A stretch of DNA of 64,000 nucleotides from Deltaproteobacteria bacterium (GTDB lineage: Bacteria; DRYD01). Location of the stretch: contig JAPYWL010000004.1 of assembly GCA_028276365.1 (NCBI GenBank), forward strand, positions 4,690 to 68,689. Reading direction: 5' to 3'. Of the stretch, positions 12,866-31,001 are shown piece by piece. Within the stretch, counting starts at the first letter, position 1; each line of letters opens with the position of its first letter. The notes beneath the pieces are model-generated. The model did no database searches. It was given only the letters and a program-made list of their open reading frames with translations, and was not told the origin of the DNA. A program made the translations under genes and the position numbers.

Positions 12866-14907
12866 ATCAAATTAATTCTCAAATTAATTTTGAAAATACT
12901 AAATATTTAAAATATGCTAATTATAAGAATTTGAATGATTTTAATTATAATCAGTTAGAGATATTAGCAAAGGAAATAAGAGATTTTATAACTGAAGTGG
13001 TTTATCATAATGGAGGACATTATGGAAGTAATTTAGGAATAGTTGAGTTAAGTATTTCTTTATTAAGGAATTTTAATCCTGAATTAGATAAAATAGTATT
13101 TGATACTTCTCATCAAAGTTATGTTTATAAGATATTAACTGATAGAAAAGAAAGATTTCATACTTTAAGGACTTTTAAGGGGATATCAGGATTTTCTAAG
13201 ATAGAAGAAAGTAAATTTGATCATTATGGGGCTGGACATGCGGGTACAGGATTAAGTGCTGCTTTGGGATACGCTAAAGCTAGAGATATTCTAAAACAAG
13301 ATTATAATGTAGTTTCTGTTATAGGTGATGCTGCTTTAACCTGTGGAGTTACTTTTGAAGCTATTAATAATATAGCACAATACCCTTCTAAGTTAATAAT
13401 AGTTCTTAATGATAATGAGTTTTCTATTGCTCCCAATGTAGGTGCTTTTTCCATTTATTTAAAAAAACTTAGGAATAATCCTTTTTTAATTAAAGTTGAA
13501 AAAAAATTAGATGAAATTATAAATATATTACTTGTTAATAGTTTAATAAAAAATTTTTTAATTGATACAAAAAGTTGGATAGAAGAAGGTTTTACTAAGA
13601 TTATTTCTCCTTCAATTGTTGGAGTTATTTTTGAGGAATTTGGAATACAGTATATTGGGCCTGTTGATGGACATAATATTAGGTTATTAGATGAAGTATT
13701 TTCTTTTGCTAAAAAATTAGAAAAACCAGTTATTATTCATGTACTAACTGAGAAAGGGAAAGGTTCAAAAGAGGCACAAGAACATCAAGAGAAATTGCAT
13801 GGAGTAGCTAAAGGAAAGTTAAAAATCTCTAATTTTATATATTTTTCTACTGATGAGGGATTGAAAGTAGAAAAATCTACAAATTCAGAAGATAAAAAAA
13901 TAAAAACGTATACTGAGGTTTTTGGGGAAGCTATTGTAGAATTAGCTAAGGAAGATGAAAAGATAGTTGCTATTACTGCTGCTATGCCTTCTGGAACGGG
14001 ATTAATTAATTTTTCAAAATCTTTTCCTGATAGGTTTTTTGATGTAGGGATAGCAGAAGAACATGCTGTTATCTTTGCTAGTACATTAGCTTTAAAAGGA
14101 TTAAAACCTGTTGTATGTATTTATTCTACTTTCTTACAAAGAGCTTTTGATATGTTAATTCATGATGTGGCTTTACAAAATATTCCAGTTTTATTTGTAT
14201 TGGATAGAGGAGGGATTGTAGGAGAAGATGGACCTACTCATCATGGAGTATTTGATTTATCTTATTTAAGAATGATACCTAATTTCCAAATCTTTGTTCC
14301 TTCTAATGAGTTAGAATTAAGAAATATTATTTATACAGTATTGCAAAAATTGGATAAACCTACTGCTATAAGATATCCCAGAGATAATGTTGAAGGTATT
14401 TATCCATTAGATAAGTTTTCTACTATTGATCTATATAAGTGGGTTTTAAATTATGAAACAAAGGAACATAAAAAAGATTCTAAAAAAGTAGCTATTTTAG
14501 CTACTGGAAGATTAAATAGATTTATTCCTAAACTTATAAAATTGTTAGAAGAAAATGATATTTATTGTAAATGGTATAATTGTATAAGTATTAAACCTTT
14601 AGATAGTAATGTTTTAAATGATTTAATAGATTATGATTTGGTATTAACTTTAGAAGATAATGTATTAGCGGGTGGTTTTGGAAGTGCTGTTTTAGAATAT
14701 TATAATGATAATTTTTATGATAAAAAAATGAATGTTTTAAGAATTGGATGGGGGGATTATTTTGTTGAGCATGGTTCTATTAAAGAATTATACGATTTTT
14801 ATGGAATTAATGAAGTTGAAATTTTTAATAAAGTAATTCAGAAATTAAAAATAGATACTGTAAAGGTAGGTGTAAATAATAATGAATCCATTCAATCAAA
14901 TATTTAG
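12862..14907 (+). CDS. dxs: 1-deoxy-D-xylulose-5-phosphate synthase
   Basis: A 681-residue thiamine-diphosphate enzyme that condenses pyruvate and glyceraldehyde 3-phosphate, the entry step of the MEP pathway. Visible are HYGSNLGIVELS, the DTSHQSYVYK substrate loop, the cofactor motif from GDAALTCG to LNDNEFSIA, the transketolase central domain (GIAEEHAVIFAS) and DRGGIVGEDGPTHHG. The C-terminal transketolase domain ends with GDYFVEHG. It is slightly longer than the usual 620-640 residues owing to a 25-residue N-terminal extension and a tail that overlaps the nuoH start by 26 nt. The overlap suggests coupled translation with nuoH, an unusual operon partner. Confidence 0.95.
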   Translation: MNQINSQINFENTKYLKYANYKNLNDFNYNQLEILAKEIRDFITEVVYHNGGHYGSNLGIVELSISLLRNFNPELDKIVFDTSHQSYVYKILTDRKERFHTLRTFKGISGFSKIEESKFDHYGAGHAGTGLSAALGYAKARDILKQDYNVVSVIGDAALTCGVTFEAINNIAQYPSKLIIVLNDNEFSIAPNVGAFSIYLKKLRNNPFLIKVEKKLDEIINILLVNSLIKNFLIDTKSWIEEGFTKIISPSIVGVIFEEFGIQYIGPVDGHNIRLLDEVFSFAKKLEKPVIIHVLTEKGKGSKEAQEHQEKLHGVAKGKLKISNFIYFSTDEGLKVEKSTNSEDKKIKTYTEVFGEAIVELAKEDEKIVAITAAMPSGTGLINFSKSFPDRFFDVGIAEEHAVIFASTLALKGLKPVVCIYSTFLQRAFDMLIHDVALQNIPVLFVLDRGGIVGEDGPTHHGVFDLSYLRMIPNFQIFVPSNELELRNIIYTVLQKLDKPTAIRYPRDNVEGIYPLDKFSTIDLYKWVLNYETKEHKKDSKKVAILATGRLNRFIPKLIKLLEENDIYCKWYNCISIKPLDSNVLNDLIDYDLVLTLEDNVLAGGFGSAVLEYYNDNFYDKKMNVLRIGWGDYFVEHGSIKELYDFYGINEVEIFNKVIQKLKIDTVKVGVNNNESIQSNI

Positions 14908-16267
14908 TTTTCTTAGGTTTACTTTATTTTTTATTGTTTTTTATTTTGTTGTAGCTGTTTTTTTATTAATTATAGCATTTATTTTAGTTTTTATTTTAGA
15001 TAAATTGGGTGTTATTTCTTTACTAAAAACGTTTTTAATTATTCCTGCTAACTTTAATTGGTTTGGTTATGTTGTGTATTCTATTGTTGGGATTTTGTTT
15101 ATATTAACGGTTTTAATGGGTAGTGTTATTGTTCAGATTTGGTGGGAGAGGAAGTTTTCAGCTAAGATTCAGGGTAGGATGGGGCCTACTGTTGTTAATT
15201 TACCTTTTTTACTTGATATAGGGAGTAAAAATATATTTTTAGGAGGGATTTTACAGCCTATTGCTGATGTTATTAAATTAATCCAAAAAGAGATAATGAT
15301 ACCAGAAACTTCTTATCCTTATTTATTTTTATTATCTCCTATTTTAGCTTTTTCTACGGTTATGATTGTATTCGGAGTAGTACCTTTTAGTAGGGATTTT
15401 ATTATGCTTAAAGATTTAAATATAGGTTTATTATTTATATTTGCTATATCAAGTTATATGGTGATTTCGTTAATATTAGCTGCGTGGGCTTCTAATAATA
15501 AATATTCTTTGTTAGGTGGTTTAAGAACAGTTGCTCAAATGCTTAGCTATGAAATTCCTTTGTTGTTATCTTTTTTATCAGTTATTATATTTGTAGGTAG
15601 TTTTGAAGTTGTTAAAATAATAGAAGTTCAAGATAAGATAGGGTGGTTAATATTTTATCAGCCTTTAATGTTTATTATTTTCTTATGGTCTATGGTAGCG
15701 GAAAATAATAGAGCACCATTTGATTTACCAGAAGCGGAAAGCGAATTAGTTGCTGGTTTTGTTACTGAGTATTCTTCTATGGCTTTTTCTTTATTTTATT
15801 TAGCTGAATATGGTTACTTATTCTTTAATAGTATTATAATTTCTATTTTATTTTTAGGTGGAGATTCTTTAATTCCTGTTGCTTTTTTAAATATTCTATC
15901 TAATTATTTACCAAACAATATTTTTCAATTAATAATACTAGCTAATAGTAATGTTATATGGCTATTTTTGAAAGCTTTTATTGTTTTGACTTTAATAATG
16001 CTATTTAGATGGACTTATCCAAGGATAAGGATGGATCATTTAATGAATTTAGCTTGGAAAGCTTTTATTCCTATTACACTAATTAATATTATGTTTTCTT
16101 CTTTTGATTTGGTTTTGTCTTTAAATTTATTTAACAATAATTTTATTTTACCTTTATTTAATTGGATTTTCTTTTTAGTTATTATTTATTTAACTGCTAT
16201 TAAAAAAATTAGTTTATCTAGTAAATATAAAAATGTACCTATTTTTTATAAGAAATATAGTACTTAA
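14882..16267 (+). CDS. nuoH: NADH-quinone oxidoreductase subunit H
   Basis: The family signature is clear: WERKFSAKIQGRMGPTVV, ILQPIADVIKLIQKE, LGGLRTVAQMLSYEIPLLLS, ENNRAPFDLPEAESELVAGF and RWTYPRIRMDHLMNLAWK. NuoH links the quinone chamber to the proton-pumping arm of complex I. At 461 residues it is much longer than the usual 320-350. The conserved WERK lies near residue 89 instead of about 35-50, giving an additional N-terminal membrane region, and two helices follow the RMDHLM motif. It overlaps dxs by 26 nt and precedes the split nuoI genes, keeping the normal nuoH-nuoI order. Confidence 0.94.
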   Translation: MNPFNQIFSFLRFTLFFIVFYFVVAVFLLIIAFILVFILDKLGVISLLKTFLIIPANFNWFGYVVYSIVGILFILTVLMGSVIVQIWWERKFSAKIQGRMGPTVVNLPFLLDIGSKNIFLGGILQPIADVIKLIQKEIMIPETSYPYLFLLSPILAFSTVMIVFGVVPFSRDFIMLKDLNIGLLFIFAISSYMVISLILAAWASNNKYSLLGGLRTVAQMLSYEIPLLLSFLSVIIFVGSFEVVKIIEVQDKIGWLIFYQPLMFIIFLWSMVAENNRAPFDLPEAESELVAGFVTEYSSMAFSLFYLAEYGYLFFNSIIISILFLGGDSLIPVAFLNILSNYLPNNIFQLIILANSNVIWLFLKAFIVLTLIMLFRWTYPRIRMDHLMNLAWKAFIPITLINIMFSSFDLVLSLNLFNNNFILPLFNWIFFLVIIYLTAIKKISLSSKYKNVPIFYKKYST

Positions 16268-16284
16268 AGAAGTATAGTACTTAA
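16251..16284. repeat. 17-bp tandem duplication across the nuoH stop codon
   Basis: AGAAATATAGTACTTAA is followed at once by AGAAGTATAGTACTTAA (one mismatch). The first unit contains the nuoH stop TAA, so the second unit is a non-coding copy. It is a recent slippage-type duplication. Confidence 0.85.
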
Positions 16285-16373
16285 TAAAGAGGTTTTTAGA
16301 AATTACTTTTAGAATAATTAAATAAGAAACTGGAATAATTAAATAGGGAGTTAGGAATTGAGGTGATTTATTA

Positions 16374-18044
16374 ATGTTGAGTTCTTTAAATTATTTAGCT
16401 GATTCTTTAAGGAGATTGATAGATGGGCTTAAAATTACTTCTAGATATTTTTTTAAAGAGCCAATTTATACTTATAATTATCCTATAAAAGTTAAAGAGG
16501 TTTTTTCCAGGTGGCGTGGAAAAGTAAGAGTTAGAGCTTTTAATACTTTAGAAACTATTTATAACAGAAGTGAAAATATGTATAGATCTTTTAATTTACC
16601 GCCGTGTGTTAGGGGGTGTCCTGCTAATGTTGATGCTAGGGGATATGTAGTCTTAGCTGGTGAAGGAAAGTTTTTAGAAGCTTTAAATATAGAAAGAGCA
16701 CAGAATCCTACTGCTATGTGTTTTGGGAATCTTTGTACTGCTCCGTGTGAAACTACTTGTAGTAGGAGTGTTCAAGATCATAAGCCTATTGCTATTAGAT
16801 TAATTAAAAAAGCTATCAGTGAATATAATCTAAAAGTTAACTTAGAAAATAAGGGAAGATATAATTTTACTATAGTAGGTAAAGAAAGTAATAAAAGGGT
16901 AGCAGTTATTGGTGGAGGACCTGCGGGTATAGCTTGTGCTCATAGATTACTTAGATATGGGCATAAAGTTGATTTATTTGAAAAATATAATTTTTGTGGT
17001 GGATATCTCTATTCTGGTGTAGCTTTTTTTAGATTAGATAAGGATATTATGAACAAAGAATATGAGAATTTAGTTACTTTTACGAAGAATGGTAGAATTT
17101 TTTATAATGCTACTATTATTTCCGAAGAACAAAAAGAAAAATTTAAATTAGTATCTTATAATGATATAAAGGACTTAAATGAGTCTATAAATTATTTAGA
17201 AAAAGGTAGTGGGATATTATTTAGTGAATTAGAGGATAATTATGATGCAGTAGTTATTGCAGCAGGTGCTACTAAACCTAGAAAACTTAATTTAAAAAAT
17301 GCTGATAAAGTTGAATTAATTCAAGCTGAATGGTTTTTAGAAGATTGGAATTTAGGTATAAGGAGTTATAAAATCGGTAAAAAGGTAGTAGTTATTGGTG
17401 GTGGGGGAACAGGTATTGATGCTGCTAGAACTTGTAAAAAAGTTTTTTCTGATGAAGTATTTATTGTAGATTTATTGCCTTATGAGGATTTACCTGTAGC
17501 TGAAGAAGAAAAAGTAGAAGCAGAAGAAGATGATAATATAACTTTTATTTGTTCAGTTATGCCTACTGAAGTAGTTATTGATGAGAATAATAATATAAAA
17601 GGATTGAAAGTAGCTAAGTGTCTATGGGGACCTGTGCTTAGTAATGGTAGGAAAAAATTAATTAAAACTAATGAAGAGTTTGTTATAGAATGTGATACTA
17701 TTATTTTAGCTGTTTCAAGGGATATAGAAATTCCATTTGCTCCTAAGGATATTGTAGGTTTAAGGGGAGAAATAGTAGTAGATGGGTTTGATGTTATGGC
17801 AAATGGATTTGTATATAAATTTGGACAAAGCCCAAGACCTAAAGTATTTGCTGCGGGTGAAGCTTGTTATGGACCTCAACCTGCTATAGTGGCTTTAGCA
17901 AGTGGTAATAGAACTGCTGAAAAAATTCATATGTATTTAACTAATGAATTACCTCCAGTTTTAGATTTTGAAGTACAAAAAGTTTTAGGGCCTTTAAATG
18001 TTCACAAGGTTCTAAGGAAATCTGAGGTCTTAAAGGTTAGTTAA
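16374..18044 (+). CDS. NuoI N-terminal segment fused to a GltD-like NAD(P)H/FAD oxidoreductase
   Basis: Residues about 9-56 look like the N-terminus of NuoI: an amphipathic helix (SLRRLIDGLKITSRYFF), then YTYNYPIK and the RWRGKVRVRA stretch equivalent to the family's RFRG. From residue 75 the protein becomes a glutamate synthase small-subunit-like flavoprotein: iron-sulfur cysteines C78 and C82 (CVRGCP), C117, C122, C126 and C130 (NLCTAPCETTC), an FAD-binding GGGPAGIACAHRL near 180 and an NAD(P)H-binding GGGGTGIDAARTC near 340, ending with FAAGEACYGPQPAIVALASG. The following gene supplies the NuoI ferredoxin domain. It lies directly after nuoH, where nuoI normally sits. I infer that it feeds electrons from NAD(P)H into the complex I arm. 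Start has GAGGTGA. Confidence 0.8.
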   Translation: MLSSLNYLADSLRRLIDGLKITSRYFFKEPIYTYNYPIKVKEVFSRWRGKVRVRAFNTLETIYNRSENMYRSFNLPPCVRGCPANVDARGYVVLAGEGKFLEALNIERAQNPTAMCFGNLCTAPCETTCSRSVQDHKPIAIRLIKKAISEYNLKVNLENKGRYNFTIVGKESNKRVAVIGGGPAGIACAHRLLRYGHKVDLFEKYNFCGGYLYSGVAFFRLDKDIMNKEYENLVTFTKNGRIFYNATIISEEQKEKFKLVSYNDIKDLNESINYLEKGSGILFSELEDNYDAVVIAAGATKPRKLNLKNADKVELIQAEWFLEDWNLGIRSYKIGKKVVVIGGGGTGIDAARTCKKVFSDEVFIVDLLPYEDLPVAEEEKVEAEEDDNITFICSVMPTEVVIDENNNIKGLKVAKCLWGPVLSNGRKKLIKTNEEFVIECDTIILAVSRDIEIPFAPKDIVGLRGEIVVDGFDVMANGFVYKFGQSPRPKVFAAGEACYGPQPAIVALASGNRTAEKIHMYLTNELPPVLDFEVQKVLGPLNVHKVLRKSEVLKVS

Positions 18045-18074
18045 TTTTTATTTTTATAAAAAAGGGGGAGTTTT

Positions 18075-18458
18075 ATGGCTAGATTACCTGAATATGTAAA
18101 AAATAGTGTAATTTTGGACGATTATGCTTTGGAAGATGGGATTAGATGTTTAAGCTGTGAGAGTGGAGTTTGTATTGCGTGTGGCTACTGCTCTATGGTT
18201 TGTCCTGTTAAAGCTATAAGAATGGAAGTAATTCAAGATGAATTAGGGAGAACTATTGTTGATAAATTTGAGATAAATGTTAGTGCTTGTATATTTTGTG
18301 GATTATGTGAGCAGGTTTGTCCTACTAAAGTTATTGAAATGGAAAATACTTATGAATTTGCTTTATATAATAATGTTGATGTAGTTAGAATGGATGAATA
18401 TTTTGAATATGATGAAAAAAAATCTTTTGATCAAAAATTAATTATTAATAAAGGATAA
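18075..18458 (+). CDS. nuoI: NuoI-type 2[4Fe-4S] ferredoxin domain protein
   Basis: The 127-residue protein holds two [4Fe-4S] motifs: C33-C36-C39-C43 (CIACGYCSMVCP) and C72-C75-C78-C82 (CIFCGLCEQVCP). An additional CLSC pair (C25, C28) precedes the first. The stretch after the second motif, MENTYEFALYNNVDVVRMDE, matches the NuoI C-terminus. It lacks the N-terminal amphipathic helix and RFRG segment of a normal NuoI (about 160-180 residues); these occur instead at the start of the preceding gene. Its expected role is to carry electrons along the peripheral arm of complex I towards NuoB. The AAAGGGGGAG site is strong, so it is translated as a separate protein. Confidence 0.85.
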   Translation: MARLPEYVKNSVILDDYALEDGIRCLSCESGVCIACGYCSMVCPVKAIRMEVIQDELGRTIVDKFEINVSACIFCGLCEQVCPTKVIEMENTYEFALYNNVDVVRMDEYFEYDEKKSFDQKLIINKG

Positions 18459-18466
18459 AAATATAT

Positions 18467-19345
18467 ATGAATAAAAAATCCAAAAAAAACGAAAAAACTA
18501 CTATAGAAAAAAAGAATAAAATTAAAATAGAAAGTAATTATACTGATAAGTTAAAAATAAAAGCAATCGAAAATAAAACTAATATTGAAAATGAAATTAA
18601 TAGTGTTGATAAACAAATAGAGGAATCTAATAATAATGCTTATTTAACAAATGATTTAGAAGATAAGTTACTAAATCAGATAAAACAGGATTTTTTTGAA
18701 GAAAATAAGCTAAAAGATCTAAAAGATGAGGAGTTAGTAGAGTTGTATAAAAAAGGATTTAAAGAAGCTTTGGATATTTTAATTAAAAGATATAAAAATG
18801 TTATATTATCTAAGAGTTTATTATTCTATATATCTAATCCTCAAGAAAGGGATGATATTTTACAAGAAGCCTATTTAGGTTTTTTGAGTGCTATAACAGA
18901 TTTTGATAAAAATAAAGGTAGTTTTTATTCTTTTGCTAGTGTTTGTATTCAAAGACATATTTATACTTATATTAAAGCTTTAAATAGGAACAAGCATAAG
19001 ATTTTAAAGGGAGCTTTTTCTTTGGAATCTACTTTAAATAAGGATCAGGAGTTTGCTGAAAGAAGATTGGAAGAATATTTAGAGCACTCTAAAATATCTT
19101 CTAATATACCTTCTATATCTAGTTATTTATCTTCTGATGAAATAGCTTCTGTTAATTTTGATTATAAAGATAAACGAGAAAAAATATTAAAAAAATTAAC
19201 TCCTATTGAAAAGGAAATTTTAAAATACAGGAGCTTAGGATACAGTTATAAAGAAATTGCAGATAAAATAGGTAAAAGCATTAAATCAGTAGATAATGCT
19301 ATTCAACGTATTAAAAGAAAAGTTAAACTTATATTACAAGATTAA
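18467..19345 (+). CDS. Sigma-70 family RNA polymerase sigma factor, SigH-like
   Basis: The first 80 residues are Lys/Asn/Glu-rich and probably disordered. Then come sigma region 2 (DEELVELYKKGFKEALDILI, and NPQERDDILQEAYLGFLSAI with FDKNKGSFYSFA) and region 4 (LTPIEKEILKYRSLGYSYKE, then IADKIGKSIKSVDNAIQRIK). The arrangement, with a short linker and no region 3, is closest to SigH of Bacillus-type bacteria (post-exponential or sporulation onset sigma). Its regulon is unknown. No anti-sigma factor lies beside it. It starts 8 bp after the nuoI stop, and the next gene is a SpoIID-domain protein. Confidence 0.82.
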   Translation: MNKKSKKNEKTTIEKKNKIKIESNYTDKLKIKAIENKTNIENEINSVDKQIEESNNNAYLTNDLEDKLLNQIKQDFFEENKLKDLKDEELVELYKKGFKEALDILIKRYKNVILSKSLLFYISNPQERDDILQEAYLGFLSAITDFDKNKGSFYSFASVCIQRHIYTYIKALNRNKHKILKGAFSLESTLNKDQEFAERRLEEYLEHSKISSNIPSISSYLSSDEIASVNFDYKDKREKILKKLTPIEKEILKYRSLGYSYKEIADKIGKSIKSVDNAIQRIKRKVKLILQD

Positions 19346-19357
19346 AAATTATTTATT

Positions 19358-20590
19358 ATGTATATAAGGATTTTGATTTTTTTTATTGTTAATTTTATAG
19401 TTTTTTACTTTTATTTAGTAATTTCTTCATATGGTTATAATGTTTATAGATCGAATTTCATGTCATTGTTAAATCAAGAAAGCTATGATGTTATTAGAGT
19501 ATTAATAGATAGTGGGTATATTAAAGATAGGATTGATTTAAAGGGGAGTAATATAAGTTTAAGATATTCTTTAAAGAAATATCCTTCTATTTATCAAGGC
19601 TCTAATAATTTGTTTAATTTTTTATCAATAGTTTATAATTATCCTTATTTAGATTATTATTATTCTGAGAATAAGTATTATATTAATTTTGAGGATATAA
19701 GTGATGTTTTAGTTTTATCGAATGATTTTATTGAGTATAAAAATAGGAAATATAGAGGAATAATGAGAATAATTTTTAAAGATCATAAATATTATTTAAT
19801 TAATTATGTTAGTTTAGAGGATTATTTAAAAGCGGTTGTACCATCAGAGATGCCATATACCTGGAGTATAGAGGCTTTAAAAGCACAAGCTATTGCTGCA
19901 AGAACTTATGCTATTAAAATGATGTTAACTAGGAGATCTAAAAATGAGATTTTTGATGTTTATTCTACTGTTTTGGATCAAGCTTATTATGGGATTGATT
20001 ATGAAAAAGATACTACTAATTTAGCAGTGGATTCTACTAAAGGTATGATCTTAGTTTTTAATAACGAACCTATTTGGGCTTTATATCATTCTAATTGTGG
20101 AGGATTTACTATTGATGGATATTTACCCTTTGCTAAAACAGTATCTAAAGAAGATTATTATTTATCTTCTGTTAAATGTTATTATCCTGGAAATACTTGG
20201 GTTTCTAAAATTAGTTTATATGAAATAAAGGATTTGTTAAAAAAATATACTAAAAGAGAAGTTTATTCAATTAATTCTATTTCTGTTAATTCATTTAAAA
20301 CTACTTTTATTTACCAAACTGTGAATAATACTTTTGTTAATTATAGTATATATAATTGGGAGTTAAGGAAGTTATTGAATTATAGAATAAAAAGTCCGTT
20401 TATAGATAAAGTAAGTATTGAGAAGGATTGGGTAATTTTTGAGGGTAAAGGTAATGGGCATGGAGTAGGTATGTGTCAATATGGAGCAAATTATATGGCT
20501 AAAGCTGGATATAGTTATGTTCAAATACTAAATCATTATTATCCTAATTCTGTTTTAATTAACTTAACTGATTATTTTTCTAAAAAATGA
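19358..20590 (+). CDS. SpoIID/LytB-domain protein (first copy)
   Basis: A 410-residue protein with an N-terminal membrane anchor (residues 2-20). The SpoIID domain includes YLKAVVPSEMPYTWSIEALK, AQAIAARTYAIK, the HSNCGGFT segment and the C-terminal GKGNGHGVGMCQYGANYMA. Bacillus SpoIID cleaves denuded glycan strands as a lytic transglycosylase; many non-spore-formers have homologues involved in peptidoglycan remodelling or septation. The conserved glutamate of PSEMP is the likely catalytic residue. It starts 12 bp after the SigH-like sigma factor, so the two may be co-expressed. A second, larger homologue is at 52.3-54.4 kb. Confidence 0.87.
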   Translation: MYIRILIFFIVNFIVFYFYLVISSYGYNVYRSNFMSLLNQESYDVIRVLIDSGYIKDRIDLKGSNISLRYSLKKYPSIYQGSNNLFNFLSIVYNYPYLDYYYSENKYYINFEDISDVLVLSNDFIEYKNRKYRGIMRIIFKDHKYYLINYVSLEDYLKAVVPSEMPYTWSIEALKAQAIAARTYAIKMMLTRRSKNEIFDVYSTVLDQAYYGIDYEKDTTNLAVDSTKGMILVFNNEPIWALYHSNCGGFTIDGYLPFAKTVSKEDYYLSSVKCYYPGNTWVSKISLYEIKDLLKKYTKREVYSINSISVNSFKTTFIYQTVNNTFVNYSIYNWELRKLLNYRIKSPFIDKVSIEKDWVIFEGKGNGHGVGMCQYGANYMAKAGYSYVQILNHYYPNSVLINLTDYFSKK

Positions 20591-20640
20591 AAAATAAATA
20601 GTAATCATAGTTTAAATATTGATTAAATAATTTATAATTT

Positions 20641-21168
20641 ATGAGTTTTAAATTATTAAAATTAATTTCAGAAGAGGAAATTCAGAAAGGAGTATCTTAT
20701 ATTGCTAATAAGTTGAATAGTTTTTTAGATGAGAATTATGAAGATGAGTGGTATTTTATAACGGTGATGAAGGAGGGTATACCTTTTAGTGTTGATTTAT
20801 CTAAGCAAATTAGGCATAATTTGATATTTGATTATATATTTTTAGAAAAGATATTTGAATATGATAATATTAAGGAGTTAGCTATAAAAAAAGATATATT
20901 TTTACCTGTTAATAATAAAAATGTGATAGTATGTGCTACTGTTATTCATACGGGATATGAGGTTAATTTTATAAAAGAAGCTCTAAGGATTAGGGGAGCT
21001 AAGTCTATATTTATTGTTAGTTTAGTATTAAAACAGTATCCTAATAGTATAGTTAAGCCAGATTTTTATTATTTTGATATTGAGGGGACCGAATTTTTAG
21101 TTGGTTATGGGTTAGGTTATAATGAAAAGTATAGGAATCTTAATTCTATTTATAAGTTGGCTCTTTAA
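20641..21168 (+). CDS. Hypoxanthine phosphoribosyltransferase-like protein with degenerate PRPP motif
   Basis: The 175-residue protein matches HPRT in length and ends, with EFLVGYGLGYNEKYRNLNSI equivalent to the family's purine-binding FVVGYGLDYxExYRNLP. In place of the PRPP-binding motif (usually VEDIxDTG) residues 95-106 read VIVCATVIHTGY: both acidic residues and the aspartate of DTG are replaced (Cys, Ala, His). The loop glycine-threonine pair is kept. In known enzymes these acids are needed for PRPP and the reaction, so this copy may be inactive or regulatory. There is no tilS or ftsH next to it, the usual hpt neighbours. Confidence 0.7.
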   Translation: MSFKLLKLISEEEIQKGVSYIANKLNSFLDENYEDEWYFITVMKEGIPFSVDLSKQIRHNLIFDYIFLEKIFEYDNIKELAIKKDIFLPVNNKNVIVCATVIHTGYEVNFIKEALRIRGAKSIFIVSLVLKQYPNSIVKPDFYYFDIEGTEFLVGYGLGYNEKYRNLNSIYKLAL

Positions 21169-21242
21169 TATATATTTTAATATTTGCTTTTAAAAGGATT
21201 ATTTAATTAATTAATGAATAAATAAAAAAGCGGGAATCGAGT

Positions 21243-21641
21243 ATGTTAATAGAGTTAAAAATAAGTACTAAATTAAGAGAAGATTTAATAGATATAACTG
21301 ATTTAGTATTAGAGAAGATAGAACAGAGTGGAATTAAAAATGGGATAGCTGTTATTTTTGTGCCTCATACTACTGCAGCTATACTTATAAATGAGAATTC
21401 AGATCCTATGGTTAAGAAGGATATTTTGGAATATTATAAAAGAAATGTACCTCTAGATTATGATTATTATCACGTTGAGGGTAATTCAGATGCTCATATA
21501 AAATCTACTTTAATTGGTAATAGTTTAACACTAATTGTAGAGAATTCTAAGGTTATATTAGGTTCATGGCAGGGGATATTTTTTTGTGAATTTGATGGTC
21601 CTAGAATTAGGAAAGTTTATATAAAAATAATTCCTGGCTAA
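21243..21641 (+). CDS. YjbQ/UPF0047 family protein
   Basis: The 132-residue protein has the family's three conserved parts: FVPHTTAAILINEN (residues 39-52), GNSDAHIKSTLIG near 80 and LGSWQGIFFCEFDGPR near 102. The histidines and glutamate probably form a metal or phosphate site. E. coli YjbQ and homologues show weak thiamine-phosphate synthase activity, but the physiological role is unsettled. Length is typical. AGCGGGAATCGAG precedes the ATG. The HEPN-domain gene follows 26 bp downstream. Confidence 0.88.
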   Translation: MLIELKISTKLREDLIDITDLVLEKIEQSGIKNGIAVIFVPHTTAAILINENSDPMVKKDILEYYKRNVPLDYDYYHVEGNSDAHIKSTLIGNSLTLIVENSKVILGSWQGIFFCEFDGPRIRKVYIKIIPG

Positions 21642-21667
21642 GCGTTTATTATTGGTAGGTGATTTTA

Positions 21668-22084
21668 GTGAAAGAAAAAAAATTTAATAGTAAATCTAAA
21701 GAAGCATATTTAGCGTGGTATGAACAAGGGTTAAGAGATTTGGAGGTAGCTGATTTTTGTTATAATAATAATTATTATGAATGGGCGTGTTTTTGTTATC
21801 AAGAAGCTACTGTTAAAGTTTTGAAAGCTTTACTAAAAAAAAATAATCTTGAATCTTTTAGGCATTCTGCTTTTTCCTTATTAGAAGAATTATCAAAAAA
21901 AATAACAGTTAATAAAGAGCTATTTAACCTAAGTATGGAATTAGATAAACATTATATTACTTCTAGATATCCTGGAGCTAATATGTTACAGCCGCCTTTT
22001 AAAGTATATAAAAAAGAAATTGCTGAGAATGCTAAAAATATTGCTAATAAAATAATAGAATTTGTTAAACAATACTTAGAATAA
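21668..22084 (+). CDS. Stand-alone HEPN-domain protein
   Basis: The 138-residue all-helical protein shows the HEPN (pfam05168-type) pattern: AYLAWYEQGLRDLEVADFCY, WACFCYQEATVKVLKALL, FRHSAFSLLEEL and LDKHYITSRYPGA. Proteins of this family bind nucleotides or act as RNases, often with an adjacent MNT nucleotidyltransferase as toxin-antitoxin pair. No such partner is present on either side, and the Rx4-6H catalytic motif of ribonuclease HEPNs is not evident. I use the GTG at 21668, six bases after GGTAGGTG; the GTG at 21659 lies inside that site. Confidence 0.72.
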   Translation: MKEKKFNSKSKEAYLAWYEQGLRDLEVADFCYNNNYYEWACFCYQEATVKVLKALLKKNNLESFRHSAFSLLEELSKKITVNKELFNLSMELDKHYITSRYPGANMLQPPFKVYKKEIAENAKNIANKIIEFVKQYLE

Positions 22085-22202
22085 ATAGAATTTTTTATTT
22101 TTTTTCAATTTTTAGAAAGATATTCTTTGTATAATTTTCTTTAGGGGAAGGAGAATATAAACAATTTTTAGGATTACCTTAAATAACTATTTTTTATTTA
22201 GT

Positions 22203-23852
22203 TTGGTTTTTTGGAGTATAATTTTTTTGTTTTTATTAAAGGGAATTAATTTGTTATATTTTACTTATCCAGATGAAAGTAGAAATGCTTTTGCTACTTA
22301 TTATATGTATTTTAAAAATAATTTATATAATTGGATTGTTCCTTATTATAATGGAGATATAAGATATGATAAACCTGCTTTGCTTTATTATATTGCGAAT
22401 ATATTTTATATGTTATTGGGTAAATTGAATTTGGATATTGAAGTTATTTATAGATTGGTTTCTGTTTTTTCTTTATTTTTATCTAGTATCATTGTTTTTA
22501 AGTTTGCTAATATTTTATTTGAAAATATTTTTTATAGGTATTTTAGTGTAGTTGTGTTTGTATCATTTGTAAATATTTTTGTTGAAGCTAAAGCATTTGT
22601 AACTGAACCCTTATTTACTTTTTTTATTTTAATTTCTTATTACACATTTCATAGATTTTATCAAACTAGTAATTATTTTTATTTAAATTTATTTTTAATT
22701 TTTTTAGGTTTAGCTAATTTTAGTAAAGGGATTGTATCTTATATTGTTATTCTTGGACCAATCTTGATTTTCTTATTATATAATAAATATAATTTAAAAC
22801 AGATTTTTCATGTATTTTTTAATAGAAAAGTAATATTAGGTTGGATAGGGCATATTATTTTAGGTTATACTTGGTTTATACTTGTTTATTTATTTACTAA
22901 TGGAAAATTTATTAAAAATTTTTTATTTTTACATAATTTTGGTAGATTTACTGGTGCTTCAAATATGCATCTAAATCCAATTTATTTTTATTTTATTGTT
23001 ATTATTGTTAATATAATTCCTATTTGGGAATTGATTTCTTTGATTTTGGTCAATTTAAATAAGATAAGTTTGAAAAAATATAATGAACATTACCTTTATT
23101 TAATTTTTATTTTTGTTTTTATTTTTGTTTTTTATAGTTTATCTAAAGGGAAAGTTTATCATTATATTATGCCAATATTTTTACCTCTTTCTTTATTAAT
23201 TATTGCTTTCATTAAGGAAATTATAGAAAATAATTATCAATTCAATTCTAAATTGAATTTAGGAGTTTTTTTTATACTTTCTATTTCGTTTTCTATTATT
23301 TTATTAGTTTTGGATTTTAAGTTAAATGATTTGATTTTTCTTAATAAGGATAAAATTATTTTTAATCTTATTTATTTAAATTTGTTTTTTACAATTTTGA
23401 TTGCTTTTATTTTATATTTTAATTATTTAAAATCTTATGCTTCTTTTTTACTATTTGTTTTTACATTTATTAAAGTTATTTTATTTTATCATTCTATTTT
23501 AGATGATATTAATTTTAAAGTTTTAAGTAAAGATTTCATAGAGATTATTAAGAATTCAAGGAATAAAGAAATAATTACAGTAGGTGATATTGCTGGTGTT
23601 AGTTTTTATAATTTATATTTTAATAAAAAAGAAAGAACTATAAGTATAGATATAAATTATTTACAAGATTTTCCAAATATCTTAGGGGATATAAAAGAAA
23701 ATACTTATTTAGTTTTTACTAAAAAGAAATATTTTTTACAACTTAAAAATACTATTGATTATTCAAAAAATTATATAGTAAAGGAAGTAAGAAATATATT
23801 TGTTATTTTTCAAGATATGTTAGTTATTGATATAAAAAAAGTAGAGAAATAA
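22203..23852 (+). CDS. GT39/ArnT-like membrane glycosyltransferase
   Basis: A 549-residue protein with about 11-12 membrane helices. The first periplasmic loop has YPDESRNA, the acidic motif of the PMT/ArnT superfamily, followed by NGDIRYDKPALLYYIAN, which matches the K-P-x-L-Y-Y signature of ArnT-type dolichyl- or undecaprenyl-phosphate-sugar transferases. Later SKGKVYHYIMPIFLPLSLL also fits the family. It should transfer a sugar from a lipid carrier to lipid A, protein or another polymer at the periplasmic face. The start is uncertain: TTG at 22203 lacks a ribosome site, whereas AGGGGAAGGAGA at 22143-22154 lies upstream of an in-frame stretch with only ATT start candidates. Confidence 0.72.
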   Translation: MVFWSIIFLFLLKGINLLYFTYPDESRNAFATYYMYFKNNLYNWIVPYYNGDIRYDKPALLYYIANIFYMLLGKLNLDIEVIYRLVSVFSLFLSSIIVFKFANILFENIFYRYFSVVVFVSFVNIFVEAKAFVTEPLFTFFILISYYTFHRFYQTSNYFYLNLFLIFLGLANFSKGIVSYIVILGPILIFLLYNKYNLKQIFHVFFNRKVILGWIGHIILGYTWFILVYLFTNGKFIKNFLFLHNFGRFTGASNMHLNPIYFYFIVIIVNIIPIWELISLILVNLNKISLKKYNEHYLYLIFIFVFIFVFYSLSKGKVYHYIMPIFLPLSLLIIAFIKEIIENNYQFNSKLNLGVFFILSISFSIILLVLDFKLNDLIFLNKDKIIFNLIYLNLFFTILIAFILYFNYLKSYASFLLFVFTFIKVILFYHSILDDINFKVLSKDFIEIIKNSRNKEIITVGDIAGVSFYNLYFNKKERTISIDINYLQDFPNILGDIKENTYLVFTKKKYFLQLKNTIDYSKNYIVKEVRNIFVIFQDMLVIDIKKVEK

Positions 23853-23864
23853 AGAAAAATAGTT

Positions 23865-24668
23865 ATGAGATTATTTGTTATTATATTTAGCGCAGGTTAT
23901 TCAAGTAGGTTTAGGAATTCGTATGAATTATATAAAGAACTACCTAAACCATTAATTCCTATTTATAATAAGAAACTAATAGATTTACACTTACATAATT
24001 TACTGAGCTTAAGGAATATAAATATAAAGTCTTTAAAAATTTATGTTAATTTACATTATAAAGCTTTTGAGATATTTAGTTATATAAGTTCTTTTTATGA
24101 AGAATATATAAAAAAGGGAATAATTAATTTTTTATTTGAACCTAACTTATTAGGACATATTAAAACTATTGATAAGTTAAAATCTTATATACTTAATAGT
24201 GACTTATTTTTTATATTAAACTGTGATTCTTTTATTGGTAAATTTTATAATTACTTAGATATTGTTTTAGAGGTTTTAGTTAATAATAAAGTGAATAATC
24301 TCATATTTGTTTCTGATAAAAGAATTTCACAGGATAAAAAAACATATACTCATTTTGAATTTAAAGATTGTTTTACCTTTAAGTATAAAAATAAGTTAAT
24401 TAAAATTTCTAAAGTAAATGATATATATAAAAATGAGGTAAGTTTTAGGGAATATATTACTTTGTATATAGGTTTTAGTTTTTTTAGAATTAATAGAGAG
24501 TTTAATAATATTTTATTATCTCGTGATTTTAAAGAATTAAATTTTATAGATTTTTTGAAGAAACTTGATTTATATTCTCTTAAAATTCCCTATTTTTTTG
24601 AGATAACTGAAGTTAAAGATTATTTAGATTTCTTAAATTATTATTTGTTCTATTATAAGTATTATTAA
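23865..24668 (+). CDS. Sugar-phosphate nucleotidyltransferase-like protein
   Basis: The 267-residue protein begins MRLFVIIFSAGYSSRF, then ELPKPLIPI, the N-terminal signature of NTP_transferase enzymes with a slightly altered nucleotide loop (SAGYSSR for xAGxGxR). FILNCDSFIG near residue 118 holds the metal-binding aspartate. The C-terminal half is poorly conserved and lacks a hexapeptide domain. It probably makes a nucleotide sugar used by the preceding glycosyltransferase, from which it is separated by 12 bp. It is convergent with the kinase gene, 7 bp between the stops. Confidence 0.65.
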   Translation: MRLFVIIFSAGYSSRFRNSYELYKELPKPLIPIYNKKLIDLHLHNLLSLRNINIKSLKIYVNLHYKAFEIFSYISSFYEEYIKKGIINFLFEPNLLGHIKTIDKLKSYILNSDLFFILNCDSFIGKFYNYLDIVLEVLVNNKVNNLIFVSDKRISQDKKTYTHFEFKDCFTFKYKNKLIKISKVNDIYKNEVSFREYITLYIGFSFFRINREFNNILLSRDFKELNFIDFLKKLDLYSLKIPYFFEITEVKDYLDFLNYYLFYYKYY

Positions 24669-24675
24669 TTAAATT

Positions 24676-26760: not shown

Positions 26761-26792
26761 GTTTCCTCCTGTATATATTTTTTTAATATTTT

Positions 26793-27713
26793 TTATTTAG
26801 CTGTATATAGTTCAGCTAATAGAGAAAATAGGTCAGCTATTTTTTCAATAATTTTATTAGTAGTTTGCTCATCAGCTCCATTTTTAATAGCGTCATATAG
26901 TTCTTTTTCTGCTTCTTTTAATAATTTCCTTGCTCTGCTTATGTTTTCATAGTATGGTTGTTCGTTAAGATCTGATATACCTCTTGCTTTTAATTCTTTT
27001 TTAATATCTTCTCTTATATCTGTATAATCTTTTTTCTTCTTTTTTTTGAGTTTATTAAAGGCTACTGACATCATTCCTGCTGCAATTGATGAGAATTGGT
27101 TTTCTTCTGCTTCTCCTTTAGGTACATTTTTTAGTTTATTATCGTTAAAATCTTCTACCATTTTTTTGGCATCTTTTACTAATTTAACTAATTGTAATTT
27201 TACAAAGATTTCAGCATTTTGAGGATTCATTATCAATTGGGTATTTAGGATTTTTTCTAAGTTTTCTATTGCTTTGTTATCTGCATTTAACCAGGTCATA
27301 ACAAATCGTTGGGTAGTATTTTCATCGGCTTTTACTTTATTCATTAAAGCGAAGTTGGAGTTAGGATTTAGCATTGAAGATAACCAGTCTTTTAAAACTC
27401 CTTTTAAGGATTGTAGTTCTTGTTTATAAAGAGGAATAGAATCTTTTTGTTGAGTTTGGTTTTTATTTTTTAATAGGTTAATATTGGATAATTGAGATTT
27501 TCTTATTTGATCTTGTTTTAATTGTTCTTGTTTTAGTTGTTCTTGTTGTTGAGTTTGAGTTAATTCTTTTTGTAGTTGTTCTTTTTTTTCTGCTTGTTGG
27601 GATATAGTGTCTTTAATAGTATTTTGGGATTCATTTTTTTTAGCTATGTCTTGAGTTTTTCCGGTAAATGAGGCTTGCGTTGTTTTCATTCTATTTATAT
27701 TTGTACTATCCAT
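26793..27713 (-). CDS. Unrecognised Gln/Lys-rich coiled-coil protein upstream of the kinase
   Basis: I do not recognise this 306-residue protein. Residues 1-95 are polar, with long Gln/Lys/Glu runs (QQQEQLKQEQLKQDQ) likely to be disordered or coiled coil. Residues 95-306 are helical and contain a lysine cluster (KLKKKKKKDYTDIRED). No signal peptide, membrane helix or cysteines are seen. It is first in an apparent two-gene operon with the Ser/Thr kinase, with a ribosome site (AGAGGTGT) before the start. Co-transcription makes it a candidate substrate or scaffold; the N-terminus is Ser/Thr-rich. A type III secretion-like or phage origin was considered but nothing supports it. Confidence 0.6.
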   Translation of the reverse strand: MDSTNINRMKTTQASFTGKTQDIAKKNESQNTIKDTISQQAEKKEQLQKELTQTQQQEQLKQEQLKQDQIRKSQLSNINLLKNKNQTQQKDSIPLYKQELQSLKGVLKDWLSSMLNPNSNFALMNKVKADENTTQRFVMTWLNADNKAIENLEKILNTQLIMNPQNAEIFVKLQLVKLVKDAKKMVEDFNDNKLKNVPKGEAEENQFSSIAAGMMSVAFNKLKKKKKKDYTDIREDIKKELKARGISDLNEQPYYENISRARKLLKEAEKELYDAIKNGADEQTTNKIIEKIADLFSLLAELYTAK

Positions 27714-27952
27714 AAGAAAATTACACCTCTATATAAATTCGGCTCTTACTATCATTTTATTTTAGAATTAAATTATTAATAAAATGTTAAATTTTATTTA
27801 AAAAAATGTAAATTTTTTTTAAGAGTAGTTAATTAATATATAGAAGTTTTTAAAATACTTTTAAGTTGATTTTTAAAAGGACTGTTTGGAAATAGAAAGA
27901 ATATTTTAAAAAAATAATTTAAAAAAATACATATAAAAGTGGAGTGTAAATT
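27714..27952. other. Divergent intergenic region, no recognised element
   Basis: The 239 bp between the kinase operon and nuoM should hold both promoters. The sequence is almost all A/T, so no single promoter can be chosen. The only clear signals are the two ribosome sites at its edges. Confidence 0.5.
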
Positions 27953-29473
27953 ATGAGTAATAGTTTTTATTCTATAGGCGTGTTAATTTTGATTTTAGCT
28001 CATTTAGTTTTACCATTATTATTATTTTTTATAAAAGAAAAGTATGTTAGATGTTATTCTATAATAATAGGTAGTTTAATAGGGGCTTTTTCTATATTTT
28101 TAGCACTTTCTTTTTATTATAACCCTGACATTACTTTATTTACTTTTAATTTAAATTTATTTGGGTTAGATTATAGGTTTAGAATAGATAATTTTAACTA
28201 TAGTTTAATATTATTAAATGGTTTAATAACTTTTGCTTTTCCTTTGGCTACTCATATTAAAGAAAGGGAAAAAGATTTTTATGTTTTAGCGTTTTTGGTT
28301 ATGTTGGGGACTGCTGGTTTATTTTTAACTCAAAATATGATACTTTTTGTATTGTTTTACGAGTTAGCAAGTGTTCCTATGTATTTTTTAATTGCCAATT
28401 GGGGTAGTTTAGGATTAACTCCTTTTAGAAAAGTTGAGCCTAAATATGCTGCTATGAAATTATTTATTTATCTTCAGTTAGGTGGAATATTAGTAATGTT
28501 GGGATTTTTTATATTACATTCTTTAGTATTTCCTAATGATTTATTTAATAATTGGAATTTTAGTGATTATGAAAATATAATTAAGGTGAAGGGATATTTA
28601 GTAGATACTGATTTAGCTAAGATTTTATTTATTTTATTTTTTGTAGCTTTTGGGATAGAGGCTGCATTAGTACCATTTCATACTTGGTTACCTGATGGGC
28701 ACTCTGCTGCTCCTAGTTCTATTAGTATGATTTTAGCAGGTATATTACTTAAGATGGGAACCTATGGGATTCTTAGAATCCCTTTTGTATTTTTTAATGA
28801 AGCTTTAAATAGTTTATCTTTAGTAATTATATTTTGGGGATTAATAAATATGTTTTGGGGAGCTTTTAATGCTTATAGACAAATAGATTTTAAATATTTA
28901 ATAGCTTATTCTAGTATAAGTCATATGGGAGTAATTTTTATGGGGCTTGGTGCTAATAATGATTTAGGAGTAAGTGCAGCTATATTTCAGATGGTTTCTC
29001 ACGGTTTAATTTCTGCGGTTATGTTTTCAGTTGCTGGGTCTTTTCAATATAGAACTAATACGAGGATATTAGATAATTATGGAGGGCTTTTAAGAGTGAT
29101 GCCATTTATTGGATCTATACTAATTTTTGCTTCTATGGCTAATTTAGGGTTACCTGGATTAAGTGGATTTGTTTCTGAGCTAATTGGTATATCTGCTTCT
29201 TTAAAAGCTATTTATTCTAATAATCTCAAAATTATCTTTCTTTTAGTTTCATTAGGTGCTATTTTTATTACTACTGTTTATGTTATTAATTTACTTGAAA
29301 AAGTTTTATATAAAAGAATAAATCCTAATTACTATGAATTAAAGGATGCTCATTGGGATGAAAAATTACATTTAACTATTTTAGCTTTATTTATATTAGT
29401 ATTAGGTATTTATCCCAGATTAATAATGGATTTATCTAATTTAATTAAAATAAAGCAAATTATAGGGTTATAG
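27953..29473 (+). CDS. nuoM: NADH-quinone oxidoreductase subunit M
   Basis: A 506-residue antiporter-like membrane subunit with about 14 helices. The discontinuous-helix signature is clear: VPFHTWLPDGHSAAPSSISM, ILAGILLKMGTYGILR, then FKYLIAYSSISHMG. The pumping glutamate lies in LFYELASVPMYFLI and the lysine in AAMKLFIYLQLGG. It starts a two-gene unit with nuoN, about 9.5 kb downstream of nuoH and the split nuoI. NuoL, J, K and the peripheral subunits are not in the window. A GGAG site precedes the start. Confidence 0.94.
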   Translation: MSNSFYSIGVLILILAHLVLPLLLFFIKEKYVRCYSIIIGSLIGAFSIFLALSFYYNPDITLFTFNLNLFGLDYRFRIDNFNYSLILLNGLITFAFPLATHIKEREKDFYVLAFLVMLGTAGLFLTQNMILFVLFYELASVPMYFLIANWGSLGLTPFRKVEPKYAAMKLFIYLQLGGILVMLGFFILHSLVFPNDLFNNWNFSDYENIIKVKGYLVDTDLAKILFILFFVAFGIEAALVPFHTWLPDGHSAAPSSISMILAGILLKMGTYGILRIPFVFFNEALNSLSLVIIFWGLINMFWGAFNAYRQIDFKYLIAYSSISHMGVIFMGLGANNDLGVSAAIFQMVSHGLISAVMFSVAGSFQYRTNTRILDNYGGLLRVMPFIGSILIFASMANLGLPGLSGFVSELIGISASLKAIYSNNLKIIFLLVSLGAIFITTVYVINLLEKVLYKRINPNYYELKDAHWDEKLHLTILALFILVLGIYPRLIMDLSNLIKIKQIIGL

Positions 29474-29501
29474 AAAGATAATAGAAGGAGTTGAATTATT
29501 T

Positions 29502-31001
29502 ATGGATATATTATTTAAGTTATTTCCAGAGGCTATTTTAACTATTTCTATTATTTTTAATATTTTAATAATTTCAATTGCTAAAAATATTAAGGAATTA
29601 AGGAATGCTTTTCTGTTGGTTTTTATATTTTCTATATTTTTTACAATTGCTTCCTTGATTTTTCAATTATATTTTATAGTAAGTGGAAGTGAGCTTATTG
29701 ATTTATCTTTAATTTTAAATAATATTATGGTTTATGGGGTAAGTTCTTTTGAGATAGTTAGTAAAATATTGTTATCTATTGTAGCTATTATTTTAGCTTT
29801 TATTGTTTCTATATATTTTTATACAGATAAATATGAGCATAGATATTTCAAATTAGAATATTTACCTTTATTTTTAACTGTTTTATTGGGTTCATTTGTT
29901 TTAGTTAGTGCTAAAGACTTATTAACTTTTTTAATAGGCTTTGAGTTGGTTGCTATTCCTTCTTATTTTGTTATAGCACTTGATAATAAGAATAAAATAT
30001 CTTTAGAAGGTAGTATTAAGTATTTTTTAATTGGCTCTATTTCCACTATTAGCATTATTTTAGGTATTTTGATATTTTATATATTTAACGGGAGCTTTTT
30101 ATATTCTGCTAATTTAAATAATTTTAATTTAATTTCTTTAAAGTTAGGGTTTTTATTTATTTTAATTGGTATTATTTTAAAATTAGCTGTATTTCCATTT
30201 TCTTTTTGGATTCAAGACGCTTATTATGCTAGTAGAATTCCTTATTTATTACTTATTTCTACATTTCCTAAGTATTCTGTGGTTTTAGCTTTAATAAATA
30301 TGTTAAGTTATATTCAGGATGGATATTTTAAGATTTTATTGAGTGTATTGGCGGTTTTATCTATGGTTATGGGGGTATTTTGGGCTTTAAATGAAAATGA
30401 TATAAAAAAAATTATAGCTTATTCTACTGTTTTTAATATGGGTTTTATTTTAATTCCATTTACTGGATTCTCTTTTAATATTGAACAAAAAATTTATGTT
30501 TTGTCTTTAGTTAATTTTTATATTTTTCAGTATATTTTATCTACTATTTTAATTTTGGGAGTTTTATTATATTTAGAAGAAAAATATGATACTACTGATA
30601 TGTTAAAACTAAAAGGAGTTTTAGCTAATAATAAAGCTTTATCGTTTTTGTTAATTGTGGGATTACTTTCTACTGCCGGGTTACCTCCTACTGTTGGTTT
30701 TATTGCTAAGTTTTTTGTCTTAGCTTTTTCTTATAAATTTAACCCTATTTTAGTTATAATTGCAATTATATTTTCAGTTGCTTCACTATATTATTATTAT
30801 AGAATAGCTAAAGAATTATACGTTGAAAAAGAATTTAGTTTAGCTAATAACTTATCTTCTTTAGATTTTTCTTTAAAAAATTCTTTTTTGTATTATGTTT
30901 CTCTTTTTGGTGTTTCTATTTTGTTAATAATTTTAGGATTATTACCTTATTTTATTACTAATACGTTCTATTTTATTACTTATACTACTATTAAGTTTTA
31001 A
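29502..31001 (+). CDS. nuoN: NADH-quinone oxidoreductase subunit N
   Basis: A 499-residue, 14-helix antiporter-like subunit. Family features are the glutamate in IGFELVAIPSYFVIAL, KYFLIGSISTISIILG, the lysine helix with LKLAVFPFSFWIQDAYY, and DIKKIIAYSTVFNMGFI. NuoN is the proton-pumping subunit next to NuoM in complex I. The spacing to nuoM is 28 bp, with AGAAGGAG in between. No terminator-like hairpin with a T run follows. Confidence 0.92.
   Translation: MDILFKLFPEAILTISIIFNILIISIAKNIKELRNAFLLVFIFSIFFTIASLIFQLYFIVSGSELIDLSLILNNIMVYGVSSFEIVSKILLSIVAIILAFIVSIYFYTDKYEHRYFKLEYLPLFLTVLLGSFVLVSAKDLLTFLIGFELVAIPSYFVIALDNKNKISLEGSIKYFLIGSISTISIILGILIFYIFNGSFLYSANLNNFNLISLKLGFLFILIGIILKLAVFPFSFWIQDAYYASRIPYLLLISTFPKYSVVLALINMLSYIQDGYFKILLSVLAVLSMVMGVFWALNENDIKKIIAYSTVFNMGFILIPFTGFSFNIEQKIYVLSLVNFYIFQYILSTILILGVLLYLEEKYDTTDMLKLKGVLANNKALSFLLIVGLLSTAGLPPTVGFIAKFFVLAFSYKFNPILVIIAIIFSVASLYYYYRIAKELYVEKEFSLANNLSSLDFSLKNSFLYYVSLFGVSILLIILGLLPYFITNTFYFITYTTIKF

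Follow-up and report, generated by a model that had tools for sequence, protein, structure and literature searches.

In Candidatus Calescibacteriaceae, a little-known family of hot-spring bacteria, the complex I subunit NuoI is encoded in two pieces with a flavoprotein between them. A first gene (ORF1) encodes the N-terminal segment of NuoI fused to a GltD-like module, and a second gene (ORF2) encodes a short GltD-tail-like segment followed by the NuoI ferredoxin domain. This anatomy is solid. We consider it reasonably probable that a StnC-like GltD entered NuoI between the anchor and the first Fe-S motif, and that it acts as an added electron input beside a HoxEFU/NuoEF-like diaphorase.

The stretch of DNA that we analysed, called the window throughout, comprises 64,000 nt of assembly GCA_028276365.1 (contig JAPYWL010000004.1, 4,690 to 68,689, forward strand), and all coordinates are positions in it unless another locus is named (Table 1).

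Table 1. Positions in the window of the chimeric locus, its parts and neighbouring complex I genes
Feature	Position	Strand	Basis
nuoH, complex I membrane subunit	14882..16267	+	directly 5′ of ORF1; Pfam NADHdh E 1e-101; NCBIfam NuoH E 6e-90
ORF1, NuoI-N::GltD chimera, 556 aa	16374..18044	+	profile matches; dN/dS 0.03-0.09 between relatives
NuoI N-terminal segment, ORF1 residues 1-58: amphipathic helix, YP and R-W-R-G motifs	16374..16547	+	HMM, hhalign, hydrophobic moment
GltD/NfnL/StnC-type FAD/NAD(P) module, ORF1 residues 74-525	16593..17948	+	domain profiles, predicted-fold match
GltD Fe-S region of ORF1: C78, C82, C121, C125, C129, invariant K145	16599..16808	+	alignment; PMC10482914
FAD-binding GxGxxG, ORF1 residues 180-185	16911..16928	+	Pfam Pyr_redox_2 / NAD_binding_8; alignment
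NAD-binding GGGGTGID (342-349) and D366, ORF1	17397..17471	+	alignment to homologues; invariant in six relatives
ORF1 C-terminal tail, residues 526-556, within GltD linker region	17949..18041	+	continuous read-through ORF1+ORF2 alignment to StnC
Intergenic, ribosome-binding-site-like GGGGGAG ahead of ORF2 ATG	18060..18074	+	sequence
ORF2, GltD-tail-like segment, then NuoI two-cluster ferredoxin domain and C-terminus, 127 aa	18075..18458	+	TIGR01971
ORF2 residues 1-28, ending R-C25-L-S-C28; proposed missing GltD ligand pair	18075..18158	+	StnC alignment, homologue comparison
NuoI ferredoxin domain, C33/C36/C39/C43 and C72/C75/C78/C82 (N6a/N6b ligands)	18159..18455	+	TIGR01971; invariant in relatives
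nuoM, antiporter-like subunit	27953..29473	+	TIGR01972 E 4e-109
nuoN, antiporter-like subunit	29502..31001	+	TIGR01770 E 6e-71

Anatomy and conservation of the chimeric NuoI

The start of ORF1 was recognised as NuoI by several methods. Residues 12-58 matched NuoI N-termini (NCBIfam NF004538, E 7e-4), and the start of the protein weakly matched positions 1-37 of TIGR01971. With an HMM of 11 canonical NuoI N-termini, the E was 4e-9 for the window and as low as 1.6e-10 in the relatives, whereas the lowest E among 3000 composition-matched shuffles was 0.05; the hhalign probability against NuoI N-termini was 95.9%. Residues 3-26 are significantly amphipathic (hydrophobic moment, p 0.003).

Residues 74-525 of ORF1 form a GltD-like FAD/NAD(P) module recognised by Pfam Fer4_20 and Pyr_redox_2, and the predicted GltD core matched NfnL (5jca, E 3e-32) and StnC (8oh5, E 6e-30). 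The best NCBIfam match was the PRK12771 type with 265 bits, which is under the model's own cut-off of 516. Together, these results bear out the sequence-only reading of ORF1 as a NuoI N-terminus with an amphipathic helix followed by a GltD-like flavoprotein. ORF1 keeps the FAD-binding GxGxxG, R352/T353 and the cluster ligands; K145 aligns with StnC K170, and R220, the counterpart of NfnB R201, aligns with R239 on the FAD side of StnC. Its nucleotide fold has GxGxxG, not GxGxxA, and where most homologues carry the NADP-type YRR, all six family genomes have V-D-[IL]-L, in which the aspartate (D366) is invariant. GxGxxG and an aspartate in place of YRR are features that favour NADH in Rossmann folds. 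Because ORF1 has both, NADH would be the favoured nucleotide, although this preference is not decisive because YRR is also missing from some GltD homologues.

ORF2 matched TIGR01971 positions 40-115 (E 4e-22), which extend from the first cluster motif to near the C-terminus, so that the model is covered from 1 to 37 by one protein and from 40 to 115 by the other, with no shared positions. All eight NuoI cluster cysteines of ORF2 are invariant in the relatives. The earlier identification of ORF2 as NuoI therefore stands for the ferredoxin part and fails for residues 1-28, which end in an RCLSC resembling that in the C-terminal tail of StnC-type GltD domains and are not NuoI.

The order nuoH - (NuoI-N::GltD) - NuoI-C was present in six of the six available Candidatus Calescibacteriaceae genomes (the window and five relatives, two genera). 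The nearest named relatives of the window's genome are Candidatus Calescibacterium MAGs. The chimera does occupy the nuoH-nuoI site, as had been proposed from the window, and the same split recurs in all five relatives. Identity among relatives was 74-92% for ORF1 and 79-93% for ORF2, and dN/dS values of 0.02-0.09 for NuoI-N, GltD, the nucleotide domain and ORF2 alike show strong purifying selection. The sole genome from another family of the same order (73% complete) gave no match for NuoB and only weak, ferredoxin-level matches for NuoI. In a tree of GltD cores, the Calescibacteriaceae sequences were monophyletic on a long branch whose placement was not resolvable; because the branch is long and unplaced, the chemistry of this GltD may have changed. 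Viral contigs, which were searched to deepen the alignments, yielded nine GltD loci, no NuoI and no GltD-ferredoxin.

The split within the GltD domain

In GltD-type flavoproteins, the RCxxC segment looks as if it had been permuted between the two ends of the chain. Among the GltD homologues collected for this analysis (L008-L031), this pair, which stands ahead of the conserved PC...CP motif, was N-terminal in 9 (and, by alignment, in L095), shifted to the C-terminus in 15 and present at both ends in none. ORF1 has the pair at neither end, and none was found upstream of C78. The motifs of the two proteins complement each other, since RCLSC occurs in ORF2 (residues 24-28), immediately ahead of the NuoI cluster motif, a position at which none of 20 canonical NuoI proteins has a CxxC. 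When ORF1 and ORF2 were read as one chain, the alignment to StnC was continuous and RCLSC stood opposite StnC RCLEC (C562/C565). The GltD domain of StnC comprises residues 102-565 and binds two [4Fe-4S] clusters, of which the one adjoining the FAD is ligated by three cysteines and K170 (PMC10482914).

The alignment thus places the ORF1/ORF2 boundary within the GltD domain, a point that the sequence-only reading had overlooked. Because ORF1 lacks RCxxC while ORF2 carries RCLSC ahead of the NuoI clusters, we infer that one [4Fe-4S] cluster is common to both chains, with ORF2 contributing two of the ligands that hold the outer GltD cluster, only a few residues from N6a/N6b. Outside RCLSC, ORF2 residues 1-22 resemble GltD tails weakly (tail HMM, p about 0.014-0.02 in the sister genus and 0.13 in the window). 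AlphaFold modelled the GltD core of the read-through chain well and both NuoI parts with a pLDDT of about 25-45; because these parts and their docking were uninformative, we did not count the model for the shared cluster.

In the window, ORF1 and ORF2 lie in the same frame with a gap of 30 nt, as might be expected of an ordinary nuoI broken by a frameshift or by an assembly or annotation error. This explanation has next to no probability. The ORF2 start has a frame offset of 0, 1 or 2 relative to ORF1, depending on the family genome, and because this offset varies, the split does not reflect a frameshift or readthrough. The five other MAGs share the organisation at these differing offsets, and a ribosome-binding-site-like sequence precedes ORF2; on both grounds, frameshift, readthrough and assembly artefact were excluded. 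A search for an RNA fold at the junction found nothing.

Complex I gene content and the proposed route of electrons

Complex I genes for NuoA to NuoI and NuoL to NuoN were inventoried by profile searches and in chosen stretches of the window's genome, which is 87% complete. NuoB, C, D, H, L, M and N were found, and NuoA adjoins NuoB in a relative. Nearly complete nuo complexes have been reported, without detail, for Calescamantes (PMC4791363). The genes are dispersed one by one or in short clusters, with no single operon: outside 14882-31001 of the window, they lie on at least five further contigs, which carry B with C, D, E with F, the short G, and L (L039, L040, L044, L119, L122). NuoD retains the GPQHPSTHG motif, and NuoD models outscore FpoD by far. 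Judged by sequence, the complex I is genuine and of the quinone type, and the proposed tethering of GltD to the NuoI anchor in a real complex I locus holds. Profile searches found no second complete NuoI in the six family genomes, and in the window's genome ORF2 gave just one further match, to a 97-aa ferredoxin.

A NuoE-like/NuoF-like gene pair is located on another contig of the window's genome (C6). The sole NuoG-like protein found there (contig C40, L044:801-1535) has 244 aa and is HoxU-like, scoring 263 bits with HoxU versus 136 with NuoG; the large NuoG domain is absent from it, and no full-length NuoG was found in the 87%-complete genome. The NuoF-like and short HoxU-like genes are kept in all relatives, with the short form in six of six genomes (L079-L083). 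The NuoF of the window's genome (491 aa) consists of the FMN and 4Fe-4S NuoF domains only and has no C-terminal ferredoxin domain. By gene content, a NuoEFG-type input module is not simply missing, and GltD is not the sole possible input because NuoE-, NuoF- and HoxU-like genes are present. Of the earlier proposal that GltD feeds NAD(P)H electrons into the arm, entry through the FAD remains the most economical role, while the suggestion that it does so in place of NuoEFG is weakened; the search for nuoI and nuoEFG elsewhere had a divided outcome, with NuoE, NuoF and the short HoxU-like protein present and a separate intact NuoI found in none of the six genomes.

Directly 5′ of nuoE-nuoF lies a 2-oxoacid:ferredoxin oxidoreductase beta-like gene (L040:16419-19476); this order also occurs in genome G001 and was not seen at the nuoF of G002. 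Most relatives have a second, hydrogenase-linked set (L075-L078; L090-L092). In it, a HoxU-like protein of 508-566 aa has either a hydrogenase small subunit or accessory genes as neighbours, and NuoE and NuoF are fused into a protein of about 625 aa that is encoded close to hyp genes. Neither this set nor any hydrogenase small subunit was found in the 87%-complete genome of the window.

These neighbourhoods bear on how GltD is used. It is conceivable, if unlikely, that GltD is the sole physiological input of an 11-subunit-type complex I with an added GltD module, and that the NuoEF/HoxU-like proteins serve a 2-oxoacid oxidoreductase or a hydrogenase. The position of NuoE and NuoF directly 3′ of the oxidoreductase gene, shared with G001, would fit such a replacement, as would the HoxU-like character of the NuoG-like protein and the group-3 hydrogenase-type sets in the relatives. 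However, all relatives retain the short HoxU and NuoF, and the 87%-complete genome of the window yielded no hydrogenase small subunit, so that the NuoEF/HoxU proteins appear to have no other obvious partner; HoxEFU has been proposed as a feeder of cyanobacterial NDH-1 (PMC9414918). The long branch of GltD, its changed nucleotide motif and the short NuoG would also be in keeping with a structural relic that binds FAD, oxidises no nucleotide and makes up for the missing NuoG domain by stabilising the arm, but the nucleotide domain is under purifying selection (dN/dS 0.03-0.09) and GxGxxG, R352/T353 and the cluster ligands are kept, and we regard a relic as improbable.

Less probable still is a bifurcating or transhydrogenating complex I, in which the GltD and NuoF flavins would exchange electrons via NuoI/HoxU and couple NADH, NADPH and quinone in the manner of StnABC or NfnABC. 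The nearest solved structures do include the bifurcating StnC and NfnABC subunits, and the counterpart of NfnB R201 is kept. Bifurcating StnB/HydB, however, is a NuoF-like subunit with a C-terminal ferredoxin domain (PMC10482914), and the lack of a domain of this kind in NuoF speaks against the bifurcating input that had been suggested from the window. The FAD of StnC is itself reported to be non-bifurcating (PMC10482914), and ORF1 has lost the NADP-type YRR.

In the added-input reading that we prefer, a StnC-type GltD would have been inserted into NuoI, and the chain would now be two polypeptides with their boundary inside GltD. ORF1 would be anchored at NuoH by its NuoI segment, hold the FAD, bind the nucleotide and form part of the GltD clusters, while ORF2 would bring in the RCLSC pair of the GltD tail together with the N6a/N6b ferredoxin of NuoI. 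Both proteins would have to associate and likely form one complex, in which the shared [4Fe-4S] cluster is probably held by ORF1 C78 and C129 and ORF2 C25 and C28. Electron input through the GltD FAD is probable: the FAD would be reduced by NAD(P)H, more likely NADH, and electrons would then move on to cluster 1 (C82, C121, C125, K145), from there to the shared cluster and, by way of N6a/N6b and N2, to quinone. The GltD port would serve as an added input, or as a reversible output, beside the HoxEFU/NuoEF-like diaphorase. More tentatively, two independent flavin ports, a HoxEF-like FMN and the GltD FAD, may meet at NuoI, one of them via a two-chain [4Fe-4S] cluster; possibly the complex runs backwards, with quinol and the proton gradient driving the formation of NAD(P)H.

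Relation to known systems

Canonical NuoI (TIGR01971) and the chimera have in common the N-terminal amphipathic anchor, the YP and RxRG motifs, the eight cysteines of the two 4Fe-4S motifs and the site after nuoH; in the chimera, however, the protein is cut between positions 37 and 40 by about 500 GltD residues, is divided into two chains and has an extra RCLSC pair before cluster 1. With StnC of the StnABC transhydrogenase (8oh5, PMC10482914) and NfnABC subunits (9bov, 9n5u), it shares a GltD with a Lys-ligated cluster beside the FAD and an RCxxC at the C-terminal end of GltD that feeds a Nuo-type Fe-S chain. StnC, however, joins GltD to a NuoG-like chain and feeds the soluble, bifurcating StnAB, whereas here GltD joins NuoI and a membrane complex I, and RCxxC lies on a second chain. 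PRK12771-type GltD-ferredoxin proteins likewise lack an N-terminal RCxxC and have RCxxC followed by 4Fe-4S motifs at the C-terminus, but they are single chains with their own ferredoxin rather than NuoI, have no NuoI N-terminus and mostly keep YRR.

PRK13984-type proteins also combine a NuoI-like N-terminus, a two-cluster ferredoxin and GltD in a membrane-complex subunit; they differ in their order (N-terminus, ferredoxin, GltD), in being one chain and in keeping the N-terminal RCxxC of GltD. Such NuoI-like::GltD fusions were found in three other genomes. Two of them (L093, 7541-9370; L095, 6677-8524) lie in full Mbx-like operons of unrelated genomes, with Mrp-type antiporter subunits and MbxL-like NuoD homologues, and the third (L094) has a NuoD-like neighbour. 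In the GltD-core tree, the PRK13984-type fusions form a clade separate from the Calescibacteriaceae GltD (support 99/99).

We know of no GltD in the NuoI of cyanobacterial HoxEFU/NDH-1. That system (PMC9414918) resembles the present one in its short HoxU-like NuoG, NuoE/NuoF-like proteins and dispersed complex I. Partial precedents therefore exist in the NuoI-like::GltD fusions of Mbx-like operons and in the GltD::NuoG of StnABC. What appears distinct here is the joining of GltD to NuoI in a quinone-type complex I, its insertion before the first cluster and the split into two chains. In the openly licensed PMC literature, we found no description of the nuoH - (NuoI-N::GltD) - NuoI-C arrangement, and the earlier statement that no such complex I had been described thus holds for this layout and has to be qualified by the three fusions with another domain order.

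According to PMC11238625, which cites Moparthi and Hagerhall, the NADH module of complex I is thought to have been gained by docking onto an older core. A flavoenzyme spliced into NuoI suggests that the entry point can be re-engineered inside a conserved electron-carrying subunit and provides a natural test case for the attachment of input modules. Because no common direct donor is known for the 11-subunit complexes without NuoEFG (PMC11238625), a physically attached donor would be informative for these as well. A [4Fe-4S] cluster divided between two chains at their junction would, if true, pose an unusual assembly problem.

Two other features of the window were observed. At 43633-45903, a 756-aa ORF fuses glutamyl-tRNA reductase (HemA) and hydroxymethylbilane synthase (HemC), both of tetrapyrrole synthesis, and at 3266-4276, a lytic-transglycosylase-like protein contains long, near-perfect GGFPGM-type repeats.
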